Source of the DNA: Desulfatiglans anilini DSM 4660
GTDB taxonomy: Bacteria > Desulfobacterota > DSM-4660 > Desulfatiglandales > Desulfatiglandaceae
NCBI RefSeq assembly: GCF_000422285.1
Contig: NZ_AULM01000036.1
Coordinates: forward strand, 1 to 38,632
Direction: 5' to 3'
Length of the DNA: 38,632 nt
Position numbers and translations under genes: made by a program. Below the pieces are notes generated by a model. That model searched no databases and had not been told where the DNA came from. It saw only the letters and a list, made by a program, of their open reading frames with translations. Positions 2,184 through 27,932 of the stretch are shown in pieces. Each line of letters opens with the position of its first letter. Position 1 is the stretch's first letter.

Positions 2184-2891
2184 TCAGAGCACGATAAACG
2201 GACTTCCTATGAAATAAACCCCCAAACACCCGATCAAAACGCCGGCACCCCTCCGAAACCATATCCCTGCCCCTTGCCGAACACTACTTTCAATCAACCT
2301 TCTGGCAGCGGCCGTCGAACTTCCCGCCACCAGGATCGGAAGGCAATGCCCGAGTGCAAAGAGGAAAATGAAAAAGACGCCTGTGCTGATGGCCTCCTGG
2401 ACCGTGATAATCGCCAGGATCGGCGCAATGAACCCGAAAGTACACGACCCGGACAAAACGCCGTAAGCTAACCCTAAGCCAAATGCCCCTCCCAAGCCCG
2501 AAAAGTTGAGCCGCTGGAGCCATCGCCCTGAAAACGTGCACCGTTCCACTCCCAGCATGCCGAGTGCTACCCAGACCAGGACGAGCCCCACCAGGATCTG
2601 CCAGTAATTCCCAATGTCTCCGAGCATCCGGCCGAGCCAGGCGCACAGCACGCCCACCAGTGCGATACTGGTGAACAGCCCCACGCTGAAGCTTCCGGAG
2701 AAGTACACGCCATCCCTCGGCTGCAGCACCCGCCGCTGACCGCCGACATAGGCGATGATCAAGGGTATGGAAGCCAGGTGACACGGGCTGAAAAGAACGC
2801 TGACCATGCCCCACAGAAAACACCCGAGCCCGCCAATGAGCACGCCTCCGCTCATCCATTGGTTAATGGTGAGAAAGATCTCCTCGAACAT
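2184..2891 (-). CDS. CcdA/DsbD-type membrane protein, ArsG-like arsenical efflux permease candidate
   Basis: This 235-residue polytopic protein has about six hydrophobic segments. Two cysteines sit in equivalent membrane contexts: C37 in LFSPCHLASIP and C150 in VLSGSCTFGFIAPI. This is the CcdA/DsbD-beta signature for passing electrons from the cytoplasm to periplasmic thioredoxins. The FSPCHLASIPLI form is also that of proteins annotated as ArsG-type aromatic arsenical efflux permeases, which are paired with thioredoxin-like ArsE/ArsF partners. Here the gene lies just downstream of a secreted thioredoxin and a thioredoxin fusion, so either role fits. Start ATG 2891 has only a weak GGGGAA ribosome site. 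Membrane placement is confident; the substrate is not. Confidence 0.7.
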   Translation of the reverse strand: MFEEIFLTINQWMSGGVLIGGLGCFLWGMVSVLFSPCHLASIPLIIAYVGGQRRVLQPRDGVYFSGSFSVGLFTSIALVGVLCAWLGRMLGDIGNYWQILVGLVLVWVALGMLGVERCTFSGRWLQRLNFSGLGGAFGLGLAYGVLSGSCTFGFIAPILAIITVQEAISTGVFFIFLFALGHCLPILVAGSSTAAARRLIESSVRQGAGIWFRRGAGVLIGCLGVYFIGSPFIVL

Positions 2892-2925
2892 CTGCGTTTC
2901 CCCGCGCGCGGAGTTCTCCGCCCAT

Positions 2926-3318
2926 TTAATGTACGCCCATCTTCTTCAGCTGAGCGACGATATCCGCCTCGGCCATAAAGCCCGTGTGCCGGTAAACTTC
3001 TTTTCCGTCCTCGTCAAAAAAGATCTGGGTCGGGATGGCCCGGATGCCGAAGCGTTTGGCAGGTGCCTGATCCTTCCAGACATCGAGGAAAACAATTGCG
3101 GCCCTTCCCCGGTAGGCTTCTTCCACACGTTTCAGAATGGGCGCCATCATCTTGCATGGTATGCACTTATCGGCTCCGAGATCCACCATGGTCACCATGC
3201 CCTCCACCGGCACCTTCTTGGAGGAAGATGCAGAAGCGTGGAACCGGGCGCTGGAACCCATCAGAACCGCCACTGCGAAAAACACGACCAGACCGACCTT
3301 GGCGTGAATCCCGTTCAT
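2926..3318 (-). CDS. Exported thioredoxin-family protein (CIPC active site)
   Basis: This protein has 130 residues. An N-terminal hydrophobic segment (residues 8-22, VGLVVFFAVAVLMG) acts as signal or anchor. The thioredoxin fold carries the active-site pair C52-I-P-C55 (DLGADKCIPCKMMAP), the cis-Pro segment RAIPTQIFFD and the closing GKEVYRHTGF. A longer frame opens upstream, but the AAGGGGG ribosome site is correctly spaced (8 nt) from ATG 3318 and too close to ATG 3324, so 3318 is chosen. It probably works in the periplasm as reductase partner of the CcdA/ArsG-like membrane protein encoded 34 bp downstream. Confidence 0.8.
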   Translation of the reverse strand: MNGIHAKVGLVVFFAVAVLMGSSARFHASASSSKKVPVEGMVTMVDLGADKCIPCKMMAPILKRVEEAYRGRAAIVFLDVWKDQAPAKRFGIRAIPTQIFFDEDGKEVYRHTGFMAEADIVAQLKKMGVH

Positions 3319-3448
3319 GTTCATAACCCCCTTTGATCCATCCCGCTCAAGCGGATGCGATTTTCCCTCTGGAATCCCCGTCACAAGGTGTCCCGATCCT
3401 GCCTCCCCGGCTTGTTCAGGGCACCGGGCGTCATGGGTCATTCCCTGA

Positions 3449-3950
3449 TCATTCACGTTCGGCCTTCTCAATGAGCGCCCGCAGCTTCACTCGCGGGAGC
3501 GCCGCGCCTACTGCAACAACACGCCCGTTGATGACAAGGGCCGGCATGCCCATGACGCCATAGCTCCCAATCTCCTTGATATCTCTGACATGCCGAAGAC
3601 TGGCGGAAAGATCGAATTCTGTCAGTACAGCCATGACTTCCCTCTCCATTTGATCGCACTGGGCGCAGCCAGGGCCAGGACCGCTATGTCCAGTTCTTGG
3701 CCACCGGGCTCGTCTTCATGAGGCAAGCCGCAATACTTTCTGTATTCGCGGAAAAACGCCTGCGCATAATCCCCCCGGGCCTTGGCAGGAATATAATTCT
3801 TCCTGCCCAGCCTCTGCATGAGTGCGGCCCTGATTTCCTCCTCCGACCCGTTACGAATTGCCCGCGCATTTCCACGAGGGCCGCCTCCAAGCCGATGGTG
3901 CCCACAGGTTGCCCCTTCACCCTGATCTGAAAAATGTTGTTCTCATCCAT
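3449..3950 (-). pseudogene. Thioredoxin fusion protein (N-terminal domain + small MTH895-type thioredoxin), broken by two frameshifts
   Basis: Three consecutive frames add up to one protein. From ATG 3950 (ribosome site GGAG) it reads MDENNIFQIRVKGQPVGTI and on to GLEAALVEMRGQF. After a missing base near 3847-3853 it continues in another frame as EEEIRAALMQRLGRKNYIPA and EYAQ-like helices (DYAQAFFREYRKYCG). After a second missing base near 3675-3680 it continues as GPGCAQCDQMEREVMAVL, then IKEIGSYGVMGMPALVINGR. The C-terminal part is a small thioredoxin with a CAQC site and cis-Pro. Inserting one base at each point restores a single ORF of about 165 codons. It is either a recent pseudogene or two assembly errors. 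It is first in the leftward arm, close to the promoter at 4075-4103. Confidence 0.7.
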
Positions 3951-4061
3951 CACTGTGCTCCATTGCCACTCCTCCTCGCCACCTTCACAAGCTCCTAGAC
4001 CTGTACTCAGAGTCGAAAGCCTCCTCTCCAAGCGCTGCGCAAGGATCATTGGAAGATTTCT

Positions 4062-4103
4062 GTATACGCATTTATGAATATAGCACTCGCTGGCTTCTGT
4101 CAA
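4062..4103 (-). promoter_or_regulatory. Leftward promoter of the arsenic divergon with ArsR-type operator
   Basis: On the minus strand TTGACA (4103-4098) is followed after 17 nt by TATTCA (4080-4075). The -10 lies inside an AT-rich element reading TATATTCATAAATGCGTATA. The same motif occurs at the rightward promoter (4381-4401), also overlapping the -10. Binding there would shut both arms at once, as ArsR/SmtB repressors do. The spacing and the duplicate are directly visible; ArsR binding is inferred. Confidence 0.55.
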
Positions 4104-4410: not shown

Positions 4411-4750
4411 ATGAAGGATTTCATCAGAGTCGTCAAGGCCCTTTCCGAACCGGGTGAAAATCATCAAGATCCTGCAGCGGCGCGTGCTGTGCGTCTGTGA
4501 AATCCAGGCGGCACTGGGACTTGCCCAATCCACCACGAGCAAGCATCTTAAAATCCTCGAGGATACAGGTCTGATCAACTACACGAAAGACGGGCTGTGG
4601 GTCAATTATGAACTGGAGAAAACCCCTTCAAATCCGTATGCGGCCATCCTGCTCAAGCAGGTCTGCGACTGGATGGAGGACGAAGCCGATGTCTCGGAGT
4701 TGGTCGCCCGCCTACCCCGCATCCGCCGGGAGGACATCTGTGGAAACTGA
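4411..4750 (+). pseudogene. arsR: ArsR/SmtB-family arsenic repressor, frame disrupted near residue 13
   Basis: The N-terminus from ATG 4411 reads MKDFIRVVKALSEP and then leaves frame. The rest of a normal ArsR follows in another frame from about 4448: RVKIIKILQRRVLCVCEIQA, then LGLAQSTTSKHLKILED and a winged-helix end. The family usually has ALSDPNRVKIIK here, so a few bases (possibly five) appear to be missing. The As(III)-sensing CxC in helix 3 (LCVCEI) is kept, as is the recognition helix. An internal GTG at 4454 could start a shortened protein lacking helix 1. The gene heads the rightward arsenic arm behind the operator-bearing promoter. Confidence 0.7.
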
Positions 4751-4952: not shown

Positions 4953-6124
4953 ATGAAGGAACGTACTAAACTCCTGCTGATCGCCGCGATCTTCCTGGCG
5001 GCCTACTATGTGCCCTGGGCCCATCCCACGATTCGACAATCCGGACTCGAGGCCTTCATGAAGCTGCAGGAATACGCCCGCGAACACGTGCTGACCTGCC
5101 TGATCCCCGCTTTCTTCATTGCCGGCGCCATCACGGTGTTGGTCTCGCAGGCCTCCGTGCTCAAATACTTCGGCGCACAGGCAAGCAAAATCCTCTCCTA
5201 CTCGGTGGCCTCCGTCTCGGGAACCATCCTGGCGGTGTGCTCCTGCACGGTCCTGCCGCTGTTTGCCGGCATCTACACGCGGGGCGCGGGGATCGGGCCT
5301 GCGACGGCGTTTCTCTACTTCGGACCGGCCATCAACGTGCTCGCCATTACCCTGACCGCGAAAATCCTCGGCTGGCAACTCGGCCTGGCCCGGGCCGTGG
5401 GAGCCGTGATTTTCGCGGTGGTGACAGGCCTGCTGATGGCCATCATCTTAAAAAAGGATGACGCCGCGCGCACCACCGGCCAGATCTACGTGCCAGAGGC
5501 CGAAGGAAATGAACGGACTCTTTTTCAGGACACCCTGTACATTGGGACCATGGTGCTGATCCTGGTCTTCGCCGCTTTCGCCAAGCCGGATCCCGGCTCG
5601 ACCGGGATCTGGCCCACTGTTTTCGCCGCCAAGTGGCACATCACCATCGGGCTGCTGATTTTACTGGGGCTCATGCTCAAGGCCTGGTTCACCAAAGAGG
5701 AGTACAAGTGCTGGCTGGAAGCCACCTGGGGCTTCATGAAATAGATCTTTCCCCTCCTTGCAGGGGAGTTCTCGTGGCCGGCTTCATGCTGGGCCGTCCC
5801 GGCCATGCCGCCCTGATTCCCGAGCAGTGGATCCAGTCGCTGCTGGGCGGGAACTCCCTCGGGGCCAACCTGATCGCCTCGGTGGCCGGAGCGTTGATGT
5901 ACTTTGCCACGCTCACCGAGGTCCCCATCCTGCAGGGCCTCCTCGGGGCCGGGATGGGCCAGGGGCCGGCTCTACCCCTGTTGCTGGCCGGACCGGCGCT
6001 TTCCCTTCCCAACATGCTCGTGATCGGAAGCGTGATGGGGGTCAAGAAGACAGCCGTCTTCTGTGCGATCATCGTGGTGATGTCCACCTTCGCCGGGATG
6101 ATCTATGGTGCGTGGTTTGCGTGA
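4953..6124 (+). pseudogene. Permease of the ArsP/DUF318 type (arsenical or metal efflux), broken by UAG and frameshift
   Basis: ATG 4953 has a good AAGGAG site 6 nt upstream. The first 264 residues show several membrane helices with LIPAFFIAGAITVLVSQ and the hallmark AVCSCTVLPLFAGIY, GPATAFLYFGPAINVL. The frame ends ..ATWGFMK-TAG at 5742-5744, where relatives would have Gln. The remainder, LVAGFMLGRPG, IPEQWIQSLLGGNSLGANL, MYFATLTEVPILQG, LPNMLVIGSVMG, resumes in another frame from about 5763 to TGA 6124. One missing G in the GGGG run near 5762-5766 explains the shift. Two lesions in 20 bp make a non-functional allele likely, unless both are sequence errors. The product would be an inner-membrane efflux pump of the arsenic operon. 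Confidence 0.7.
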
Positions 6125-6228: not shown

Positions 6229-6462
6229 ATGGACATCAAAGTGCTGGGTCCTGGCTGCCCCAAATGCCAGCAGACAGAAAAGGTCGTCAAGAAGGTGGTC
6301 GCCGAAACCGGCTTGGACGCCACCGTGGAGAAGGTCACTGATACCATGAAAATAGCGGGCTACGGCGTTTTCCTTACGCCAGCGGTGGTGGTCGACGGCG
6401 AGGTGAAAAGTGTGGGCAAGGTCCCTTCCAAGGACGACGTCAAGAAGTGGGTCTCCAGATAG
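6229..6462 (+). CDS. Small thioredoxin-like protein (MTH895/TM0996 type, CPKC site)
   Basis: This is an intact 77-residue protein. It begins MDIKVLGPGCPKCQQ with redox cysteines C10 and C13, then shows the cis-Pro segment YGVFLTPAVVVDGEV and ends SVGKVPSKDDVKKW. Start ATG 6229 lies behind a purine-rich stretch (AAGAGAAAGAAG) rather than a strong ribosome site. Such mini-thioredoxins regularly sit beside ArsP-type permeases and ArsR regulators. A role as electron donor or thiol carrier in arsenic handling is inferred from that neighbourhood. Confidence 0.85.
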   Translation: MDIKVLGPGCPKCQQTEKVVKKVVAETGLDATVEKVTDTMKIAGYGVFLTPAVVVDGEVKSVGKVPSKDDVKKWVSR

Positions 6463-6484
6463 CAGGCATCATGGAGGATTTTTC

Positions 6485-7297
6485 ATGCCGAAATGCAAAG
6501 ATGATGAAATCCGTGATCTCGTAAGGGAAAAATATGGTGCGGTTGCGGAAGGCAAAGAGGGGCTGGGAGGCTCCGCCTGCTGCGGCAACACGCCGACCAT
6601 GACAGAGATTCAAGCGAGGGGGAAGTTTCTGGATTACCGGGAGGAGGATCTTCTGCTTGCGCCCGGGACAGCCAACTTGGGGCTCGGCTGCGGCAACCCC
6701 ATCGGCATGGCGGGGTTGATGGCGGGGGAGGCGGTGGTTGATCTCGGGAGCGGCGCGGGCTTCGATGCCTTTCTGGCCTCCAGGCAGGTGGGTCACTCAG
6801 GACACGTGATCGGCCTGGACATGACCGCGGAAATGGTTCAGAAAGCCAAAGAAAACGCCGAGAAACTGGGGGTTCGGAACGTCGATTTCCGCCTCGGAAA
6901 GATCGAGGCCCTTCCGGTCGAAGACAACACCGTTGACGTGGTCATCTCCAACTGCGTCATCAATCTCTCTCCGGATAAGGGAAAGGTTTTCAGCGAGATC
7001 CACCGGGTGCTGAAGCCCGGAGGGCGCATAGTGATTTCCGACGTGCTCCGCTCCGGGGAGATCCCGGACTCCCTTCGGGACAACCCCGCCGCCTACACCG
7101 GGTGAGTGGCCGGGGCCATTTCACCCGGGGAGGTGGAAAAAATCCTTTGGAACGTGGGTTTCAAGGATATCAGGATCCACGAAAAAGAGCAGAGCCAAGA
7201 GATCATCCGTGGCTGGAATGTTGCGGAGGGGGCTGAGAAGGTCGTCTTTTCAGCCTACATCCTGGCGGTCAAGCCTTTCTCCGAACCGGGAGTGTGA
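6485..7297 (+). CDS. arsM: ArsM-type arsenite S-adenosylmethionine methyltransferase, putative selenoprotein (UGA at codon 207)
   Basis: Predicted to methylate As(III) in the cytoplasm. Start ATG 6485 follows GGAGG. The 270-codon frame shows C32-C33 (SACCGN), C69 in LGLGCGNPIG, SAM motif I DLGSGAGFDAFL (residues 86-97), ISNCVINLSPDK and LKPGGRIVISDVL. At codon 207 (7103-7105) a TGA replaces the Cys of the conserved YTGC-VAGA motif, the second arsenic-binding Cys of ArsM enzymes. The same frame then continues to a normal end: VAGAISPGEVEKIL, VGFKDIRIHEKEQ, VVFSAYILAVKPF, TGA 7295-7297. A SECIS-like hairpin begins 13 nt after the UGA. The alternative is a nonsense mutation, since neighbouring genes are damaged, but an exact hit on the catalytic Cys codon favours Sec. 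ArsM identity is firm; Sec is probable. Confidence 0.8.
7119..7138 (+). other. Candidate bacterial SECIS hairpin of arsM
   Basis: UUUCACC (7119-7125) pairs with GGUGGAA (7132-7138), giving seven base pairs with one G-U and a six-nt loop CGGGGA. The loop starts 20 nt after the UGA and has a G in its first two positions. Both features fit the published loose bSECIS consensus (loop 16-37 nt downstream). A second, tighter hairpin just after the UGA (UGGC-CGGG-GCCA, 7107-7118) is too close to act as SECIS. Confidence 0.45.
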
Positions 7298-7555: not shown

Positions 7556-7819
7556 ATGGCCGACAAAGCCCCCTTTACCGAAGATATCCGCAATGCACCC
7601 GACACGGAAACGGTCTGCTATTGCTCCAGTTTAAGCAAGGGAGCGATCCTCCAGGCGATGGAGGCAGGAGCCCGATCGCTGCAAGAGATAAAAGCAGCCA
7701 CAGGCGCCTGCACCCAGGGGCGGTGCCGGGAAACAAACCCGAGAAGACGTTGATGTTCGCGGGAAATCCGCCTTCTCCTCGGTGAGGAAATCGACCAACA
7801 AACACTGGCGATGCCATGA
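7556..7819 (+). CDS. BFD-like [2Fe-2S] protein, Csac_0668-type putative selenoprotein (UGA at codon 66)
   Basis: The small protein starts at ATG 7556 and shows the BFD-like iron-sulfur pattern: VCYCSSLSKG (C21, C23), GARSLQEIKAATGACTQGRC (C52, C57), then NPRRR. The family normally continues with a CC pair (NPxGRCCSxEI). Here codon 66 is TGA (7751-7753), followed by TGT and SREIRLLLGEE up to TGA 7817-7819, so the pair reads Sec-Cys. As I recall, this family is annotated by NCBI as a 2Fe-2S cluster-binding (seleno)protein, which supports the reading. A hairpin with a GGU loop lies 27 nt downstream of the UGA. It is the last gene of the rightward arsenic arm. Role: an electron-transfer or cluster-carrying partner, not established. 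Confidence 0.75.
7773..7790 (+). other. Candidate bacterial SECIS hairpin of the BFD-like gene
   Basis: UCCUC (7776-7780) pairs with GAGGA (7784-7788) around a GGU loop (7781-7783). The stem can be lengthened by U7774-A7789 and U7773-A7790 across one bulged C. The loop starts 27 nt after the UGA. A GGU loop on a short stem is reminiscent of the E. coli fdhF SECIS apex. Confidence 0.55.
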
Positions 7820-26492: not shown

Positions 26493-27932
26493 CTACCCTT
26501 TGATGACTCCCAATGGAGTCAGTCGAGCGACTTTCCGGGCAAGGCCGGCGGCATGGACCACCTCTACGACTTGAGATGCGTCCTTGTACGCCTCCGGCAT
26601 CTCTTCCGCCAGTGTTTTTTTGCCTTTGGAGTGCACAACGATCCCCTTGTCGTCCATTTCCCGGCTAATCGACCTGCCTTTGGCCCGCTTGAGGGCCTGA
26701 GAGCGGCTCAACACCCGGCCGGCCCCGTGGCAGGTCGAACCGAAGGTCTCCGCCATAGCACCTTCAGCGCCGACCAGCACGTACGAGTGGGTTCCCATGT
26801 CCCCGGGGATCAGGACGGGCTGCCCGACAAGGCGGTAGATCTCGGGAAGAAGCGGATGCCCGGGCGGCAGAGCGCGTGTGGCGCCCTTTCGATGCACGCA
26901 CAGCTCCATGGTCCGCCCGCCGAAGCGGTGCGTTTCGTGTTTGGCGATGTTGTGGCACACGTCGAAGAGAAGCCGCATTCTCAAATCGCGGGGAGAAAGG
27001 CCCAGGGTCTTCATGAATGTTTCCCGCGTCAGATGCATGAGGATCTGACGGTTGGCCCAGGCATAGTTCGCTGCACAGGCCATGGCCGCGAGATAGCGGC
27101 GTGCCATCTCGGACTGAAGGGGCGCACAGGCAAGCTGCCGGTCGGGCAGGTCAAAGGGCAGCAGGTTGGATTTTTGGCTCATCATCTTCAGGAAATCGTC
27201 ACAGATCTGATGGCCGAATCCTCTTGATCCCGTGTGGAGGAAAACGGTCACCTGACCTTCTTGCAGACCAAAGGCCGCCGCGGTTTTCGGATCGTAAATC
27301 GTATCGACGACCTGAACTTCAAGGAAATGGTTGCCTGATCCGAGGGTGCCGAGTTGATCGACGCCCCGCTTCAGGGCTCGTTCGCTCAGGACGGAAGGAT
27401 CCGCTCCGGCCATGGTGCCGAGGTCTTCCGTTCTCTCCAGGTCCTCCGTCGTTCCGAAGCCCTGTTTGACGGCCCAAGCCGCACCTTCGAGCGCCACCCG
27501 GGCCTCCTCGGCCTTCGTGAGCACGACCGCCCCCGTGGATCCTACGCCGGTCGGGACATTCCTGAACAGGGAGAGTATCAGCTCTTTGATAGAGAGGCGT
27601 ACGTCTCCGATCGTGAGCGCCGTGGTCATGAGTCGGCAGCCGCAGTTGATGTCGTAACCGACCCCGCCCGGTGACACGACCCCGGTTGCCGGATCGAAGG
27701 CCGCCACCCCGCCGATCGGGAAGCCATAACCCCAGTGGATATCCGGCATGGCGAGCGAGTGCCCCACGATTCCAGGCAGGGTGGCGACGTTGGCAACCTG
27801 CTGCAGACTCTGGTCCCCCTGGACCTGCTTGATGAGTTCGTCGTTCGAAAAAATCAGCCCGTCGACACGCATCGGACCGGTCCTGGGAATCCGCCATCGG
27901 CAGTCGTCGACCTTTTCGAGTTTGATATCCAT
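26493..27932 (-). CDS. rtcB: RNA-splicing ligase RtcB
   Basis: This 479-residue GTP-dependent ligase joins 2',3'-cyclic-phosphate or 3'-phosphate RNA ends to 5'-OH ends. Conserved metal and guanylate motifs are all seen: GGVGYDINCGCRLMTT (Cys ligand), LGSGNHFLEVQVVD, HTGSRGFGHQI, HKGATRALPPGHP and the active-site His in STCHGAGRVLSRSQA. ATG 27932 follows GGGGAGG. The archease gene lies 74 bp upstream in the same direction, a common pairing because archease loads GTP and helps turnover. No RtcR regulator is present. Confidence 0.96.
   Translation of the reverse strand: MDIKLEKVDDCRWRIPRTGPMRVDGLIFSNDELIKQVQGDQSLQQVANVATLPGIVGHSLAMPDIHWGYGFPIGGVAAFDPATGVVSPGGVGYDINCGCRLMTTALTIGDVRLSIKELILSLFRNVPTGVGSTGAVVLTKAEEARVALEGAAWAVKQGFGTTEDLERTEDLGTMAGADPSVLSERALKRGVDQLGTLGSGNHFLEVQVVDTIYDPKTAAAFGLQEGQVTVFLHTGSRGFGHQICDDFLKMMSQKSNLLPFDLPDRQLACAPLQSEMARRYLAAMACAANYAWANRQILMHLTRETFMKTLGLSPRDLRMRLLFDVCHNIAKHETHRFGGRTMELCVHRKGATRALPPGHPLLPEIYRLVGQPVLIPGDMGTHSYVLVGAEGAMAETFGSTCHGAGRVLSRSQALKRAKGRSISREMDDKGIVVHSKGKKTLAEEMPEAYKDASQVVEVVHAAGLARKVARLTPLGVIKG

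Follow-up and report, generated by a model that had tools for sequence, protein, structure and literature searches.

The stretch of DNA that we analysed (the window) is 38,632 nucleotides of a Desulfatiglans anilini contig, and it carries an ars gene cluster with the following features on the forward strand.

4412..4750, +, arsR repressor (PF01022) with a frameshift near the N terminus (near codon 15); body 4454-4750
4953..5744, +, N-terminal part of an ArsP_1 permease (PF03773), ending at TAG 5742-5744
5741..6124, +, C-terminal part of the ArsP_1 permease (PF03773), in another frame (frameshift)
6229..6462, +, intact arsE-type small thioredoxin-like protein (GPGCPKC; TIGR00412 4.1e-31, PF13192), directly upstream of arsM
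6473..6478, +, ribosome-binding site GGAGGA before the arsM ATG, read from the sequence
6485..7297, +, arsM coding sequence, 270 residues with Sec207, predicted arsenite S-adenosylmethyltransferase (NF008823 match; in-frame TGA shared with 17 homologues)
7103..7105, +, in-frame UGA, codon 207, predicted Sec at the position of CmArsM Cys224 and hAS3MT Cys206
7119..7138, +, bacterial SECIS-type hairpin, seven pairs, loop CGGGGA (pairing and covariation, 18 sequences)
7556..7753, +, small BFD-like [2Fe-2S] protein (PF04324 1.3e-7), downstream of arsM

A sequence-only reading of this DNA had proposed an arsenite methyltransferase whose arsenic-binding cysteine is replaced by an in-frame UGA, with the rest of the protein continuing in the same frame. 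Both parts of this proposal held up. The read-through product matched NF008823 (1.6e-98, 329.5 bits, above the curated cut-off of 263), with the methyltransferase domain at residues 81-220 and the SAM motif VDLGSGAGFD. From the ATG at 6485 the frame runs through TGA 7103-7105 and then unbroken to the end codon, TGA 7295-7297. The UGA lies in the context YTG-U-VAGA. Alignment with solved ArsMs (5evj, 4kw7, 4fr0/4fs8/4fsd) predicted Cys69 (GLGCGNP), Cys157 (SNCVINL) and UGA207 as the arsenic ligands; codon 207 falls on CmArsM Cys224, or hAS3MT Cys206, as had been claimed. Mutants have identified CmArsM Cys72, Cys174 and Cys224 (hAS3MT Cys61, Cys156 and Cys206) as arsenic-binding, and both methylation steps require CmArsM Cys174 and Cys224 (hAS3MT Cys156 and Cys206) (PMC3877260). 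The window's Cys69, Cys157 and Sec207 correspond to the three CmArsM ligands, and Cys32/33, Cys69 and Cys157 are common to the Sec and Cys ArsM clades.

The same reading had warned that neighbouring genes are damaged and that a nonsense mutation must be excluded, and in the assembly arsR and arsP are indeed broken. Closer relatives carry, in open frames, the order arsR, arsP permease, one or two small ArsE/thioredoxin-3 proteins and Sec-arsM; the arsE-type gene occupies the same place in them, and arsR homologues are intact in three relatives' loci (L074-L076). In the window, TAG 5742-5744 replaces a Gln codon of intact relatives, and about ten codons past it arsP (4953-6124, +), one continuous frame in relatives, is frameshifted. 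The pN/pS of the window's arsP against relatives was 0.20-0.25, compared with 0.10-0.17 between relatives, and at columns where five relatives are invariant it had 16 changes unique to it, compared with 1-11 in each of the five. This indicates that, by its sequence, the arsP remnant evolves faster than in relatives and shows relaxation. The damage reflects either real decay or an assembly error; with arsR and arsP both broken and arsP evolving faster, the operon may be decaying in this host. The BFD-like gene was not found near ArsM in relatives. At about 3170-4100 on the reverse strand, fragments of a longer protein of the thioredoxin-3 type (GPGCAQCDQME..., QPVGTIGLEAAL...) lie over several frames; in relatives this protein is unbroken and shares its strand with arsM (L074, reverse-complement 2502-3032, is an example), and the fragments look like another broken copy, inverted in the window.

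The broken neighbours and the many unusual arsP changes would fit a reading in which UGA207 is itself a nonsense mutation of a decaying ars operon, leaving an inactive protein that ends at residue 206. We therefore consider the homologues with this reading in mind, following the suggestion that ArsMs of the phylum be searched for Cys/Sec pairs. That search yielded 18 ArsM genes with TGA at codon 207: the window's own and 17 more, which are 53-75% identical to it and come from other genomes of the order and phylum, spread over several families. In a first set of 61 related genomes, 19 carried genes resembling arsM (E no higher than 1e-40), and in 12 of these, window included, codon 207 was TGA, the others having TGC or TGT. 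Sampling 395 genomes from the phylum added at least six more genes with TGA; the remaining fetched loci, which the residue-by-residue reading covered, were Cys forms. Every other, more distant ArsM examined residue by residue had TGC or TGT at this position, and a scan of genome contigs for ArsM returned Cys forms only. A TGA shared at this codon by 18 of 18 clade members is not a product of chance. When the tree was built with the trait residue left out, one side of a single branch consisted of the 18 Sec forms (SH-aLRT 98). The Sec/Cys label changed once on this tree, against a shuffle mean of 14.4, and none of 500 shuffles gave a count as low.

Constraint was similar on the two sides of the UGA, as the sequence-only reading had expected of a codon that is read through. 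Among 12 Sec forms, mean pN/pS was 0.28 upstream of the UGA and 0.33 downstream, and amino-acid identity was 70% and 66%, respectively. The same codon was used for the same residue at a frequency of 0.58 across the 11 codons that follow the UGA, compared to 0.42 upstream of the UGA and 0.43 beyond those 11 codons, and the 8-codon windows with the highest same-codon use in the whole of arsM start at codons +4 to +6. The relaxed selection or further lesions after codon 207 that would speak against read-through did not appear: arsM is intact, and its pN/pS against relatives (0.22-0.34) was the same as that between relatives (0.19-0.34). At invariant columns, no more than 4 amino-acid changes were unique to it, alongside 11 unique synonymous changes; with another comparison set the count of unique changes at such columns was 10, most of them conservative, and relatives had 0-13. 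Judged by sequence, the damage to the neighbours thus does not visibly extend to arsM. The 17 other genomes with the identical UGA, together with the similar constraint on both sides, led us to reject the nonsense mutation, which we regard as very improbable; conservation of the protein downstream, and of the hairpin described below, and the few unique changes in arsM also count against it. For the UGA as such, the 18-member clade settles the caveat raised earlier.

A seven-pair hairpin with a CGGGGA loop had been reported 20 nt behind the UGA. The pairs and the loop were as described (UUUCACC 7119-7125, loop CGGGGA 7126-7131, GGUGGAA 7132-7138); the distance of 20 nt is correct for the start of the loop, and the stem begins 13 nt after UGA207. 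The hairpin was kept in 18 of 18 Sec-ArsM genes, with 99.2% of cells paired, compared to 52-60% in slid controls, and the second loop base (column 25) was G in all 18 sequences. Two pairs showed compensatory change, with seven cells altered on both sides, a level reached by none of 500 shuffles. In two of the genes (L054 and L055) a Ser codon changed from TCA to TCG and a Val codon from GTG to GCG (Ala), an exchange that, at the level of sequence, preserves the stem at the expense of a protein residue. The fold energy of the hairpin in the window sequence alone was not below that of shuffles (z 0.24). The conservation and covariation of the hairpin are unusual, although its single-sequence energy is not.

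Absence of Sec machinery from the host had been named as a finding that would count against selenocysteine. The host genome (98.7% complete) contains the full set: tRNA-Sec (71.7 bits, anticodon TCA (UCA)), SelA (627 bits), SelB (387.5 bits) and SelD (367 bits). The selD gene likewise contains an in-frame TGA, and SelD is itself a selenoprotein.

L045, G000:C18:45500-46420, -, host selD, selenoprotein SelD (GSG-U-ASK)

Fifteen of the 17 other Sec-ArsM genomes have SelA, and the remaining two have SelB and tRNA-Sec. SelA is also present in most Cys-ArsM genomes of the phylum, so the machinery alone cannot separate Sec from Cys forms. One of the genomes with a Sec-ArsM and a covarying SECIS stem (G323, locus L054) is 99% complete and gave no SelA match, with SelB and tRNA-Sec present; this reflects either an assembly gap or another Sec synthase.

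The frame would be open under any decoding of the UGA as an amino acid, and this is the sole point in favour of a reading other than by Sec-tRNA, such as reassignment to Trp or Cys or leaky read-through. We consider such decoding exceedingly improbable. The same genome has the complete Sec machinery with a Sec-type SelD, a conserved hairpin lies right behind the codon, the alignment column at 207 is Cys and not Trp, and arsM itself ends with UGA; the machinery, the Cys column and this terminal UGA led us to reject a reassigned UGA.

Taken with the Sec/Cys pairs, the covarying hairpin and the similar constraint on both sides, the complete machinery makes selenocysteine the most likely reading of UGA207. 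By these sequence comparisons, arsM is almost certainly a genuine selenoprotein gene, in which the hairpin that starts 13 nt after UGA207 would guide SelB with Sec-tRNA-Sec in decoding this codon, to give a 270-residue SAM-dependent arsenite methyltransferase. In this enzyme Cys69, Cys157 and Sec207 would hold As(III), and methyl groups derived from SAM would pass to the bound As(III), as in the homologous enzymes.

It could also be that the Sec codon was inherited and that operon function has since been lost in this host, with arsM no longer expressed. The broken arsR and arsP would be in line with such a loss, as would the long end branch of the window's ArsM (0.25, compared to 0.08-0.16 for its tree neighbours). 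Against this, arsM and arsE have no lesions, arsM pN/pS is no higher than between relatives, and the GGAGGA before arsM is a good ribosome-binding site. We believe loss of function to be unlikely, though a modest chance of it should be allowed for.

The selenoprotein that we favour is not new in kind: selenocysteine at this place in the ArsM family has been in the literature since 2007, and the window's arsM is the host's member of the known Sec-ArsM family. A 2026 review of the prokaryotic selenoproteome cites Fomenko et al. (2007) for the Sec-type arsenite methyltransferase. That review places arsenite methyltransferase (NF008823, motif UxxG) among the experimentally verified families (PMC13188914), and the Sec-type enzyme also appears in a 2022 review (PMC9312934) and in a 2008 ocean (GOS) survey (PMC2398784). 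The window's protein falls under the same family model as the known bacterial enzyme (NF008823 / PRK11873, UxxG, representative WP_011987699.1); its U207-V-A-G is the UxxG of that family, the position being matched to WP_011987699.1 by motif. Nothing differs in principle from known Sec-ArsMs, and the window's gene sits in an arsR-arsP-arsE-arsM neighbourhood. The Cys-type enzymes (CmArsM 4FS8, human AS3MT) align with it at the three arsenic-binding residues and the SAM motifs; it differs from them in having Sec rather than Cys as the third ligand and in a shorter C-terminal region. The fused selenoproteins NF041536 (ArsM/DUF2284) and NF041537 (ArsM/AhpD) likewise have Sec in their ArsM part, with UxxG, whereas the window's ArsM ends at residue 270 and has no fused second domain. 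Membership in these two families was rejected, as the protein is too short and scored 161-167 bits against cut-offs of 510-575.

With these genes, a selenoprotein family that was already known gains members and an operon context. A gene caller that takes the UGA as a stop would end the protein at residue 206, with one arsenic-binding residue lost. The Sec and Cys forms make a clean pair set in an enzyme family whose structure is known. The atom exchanged between them coordinates arsenic directly, and such pairs would permit testing of what selenium contributes to arsenic chemistry. In the papers that we consulted we found no description of the role of selenium at the arsenic ligand. The sequence-only reading had held that Sec would change binding and methyl-transfer chemistry; we infer that it may do so: arsenic handling might be tighter or faster, or re-reduction easier, perhaps involving the adjoining ArsE-type thioredoxin. 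It is a tentative and rather doubtful suggestion that the Sec ligand has been kept in at least 18 species, many of them with the gene beside an arsP-arsE operon, for chemistry that Cys-ArsM lacks; the selenolate might, for example, affect As(III) affinity or how far methylation proceeds, or allow ArsE to carry out re-reduction directly.

Elsewhere in the window, at 26496-27932 on the reverse strand, lies an RtcB-like gene. Among NCBIfam families its product best matches the C-terminal part of NF038162, an intein-containing RtcB family, and the protein is apparently without an intein.
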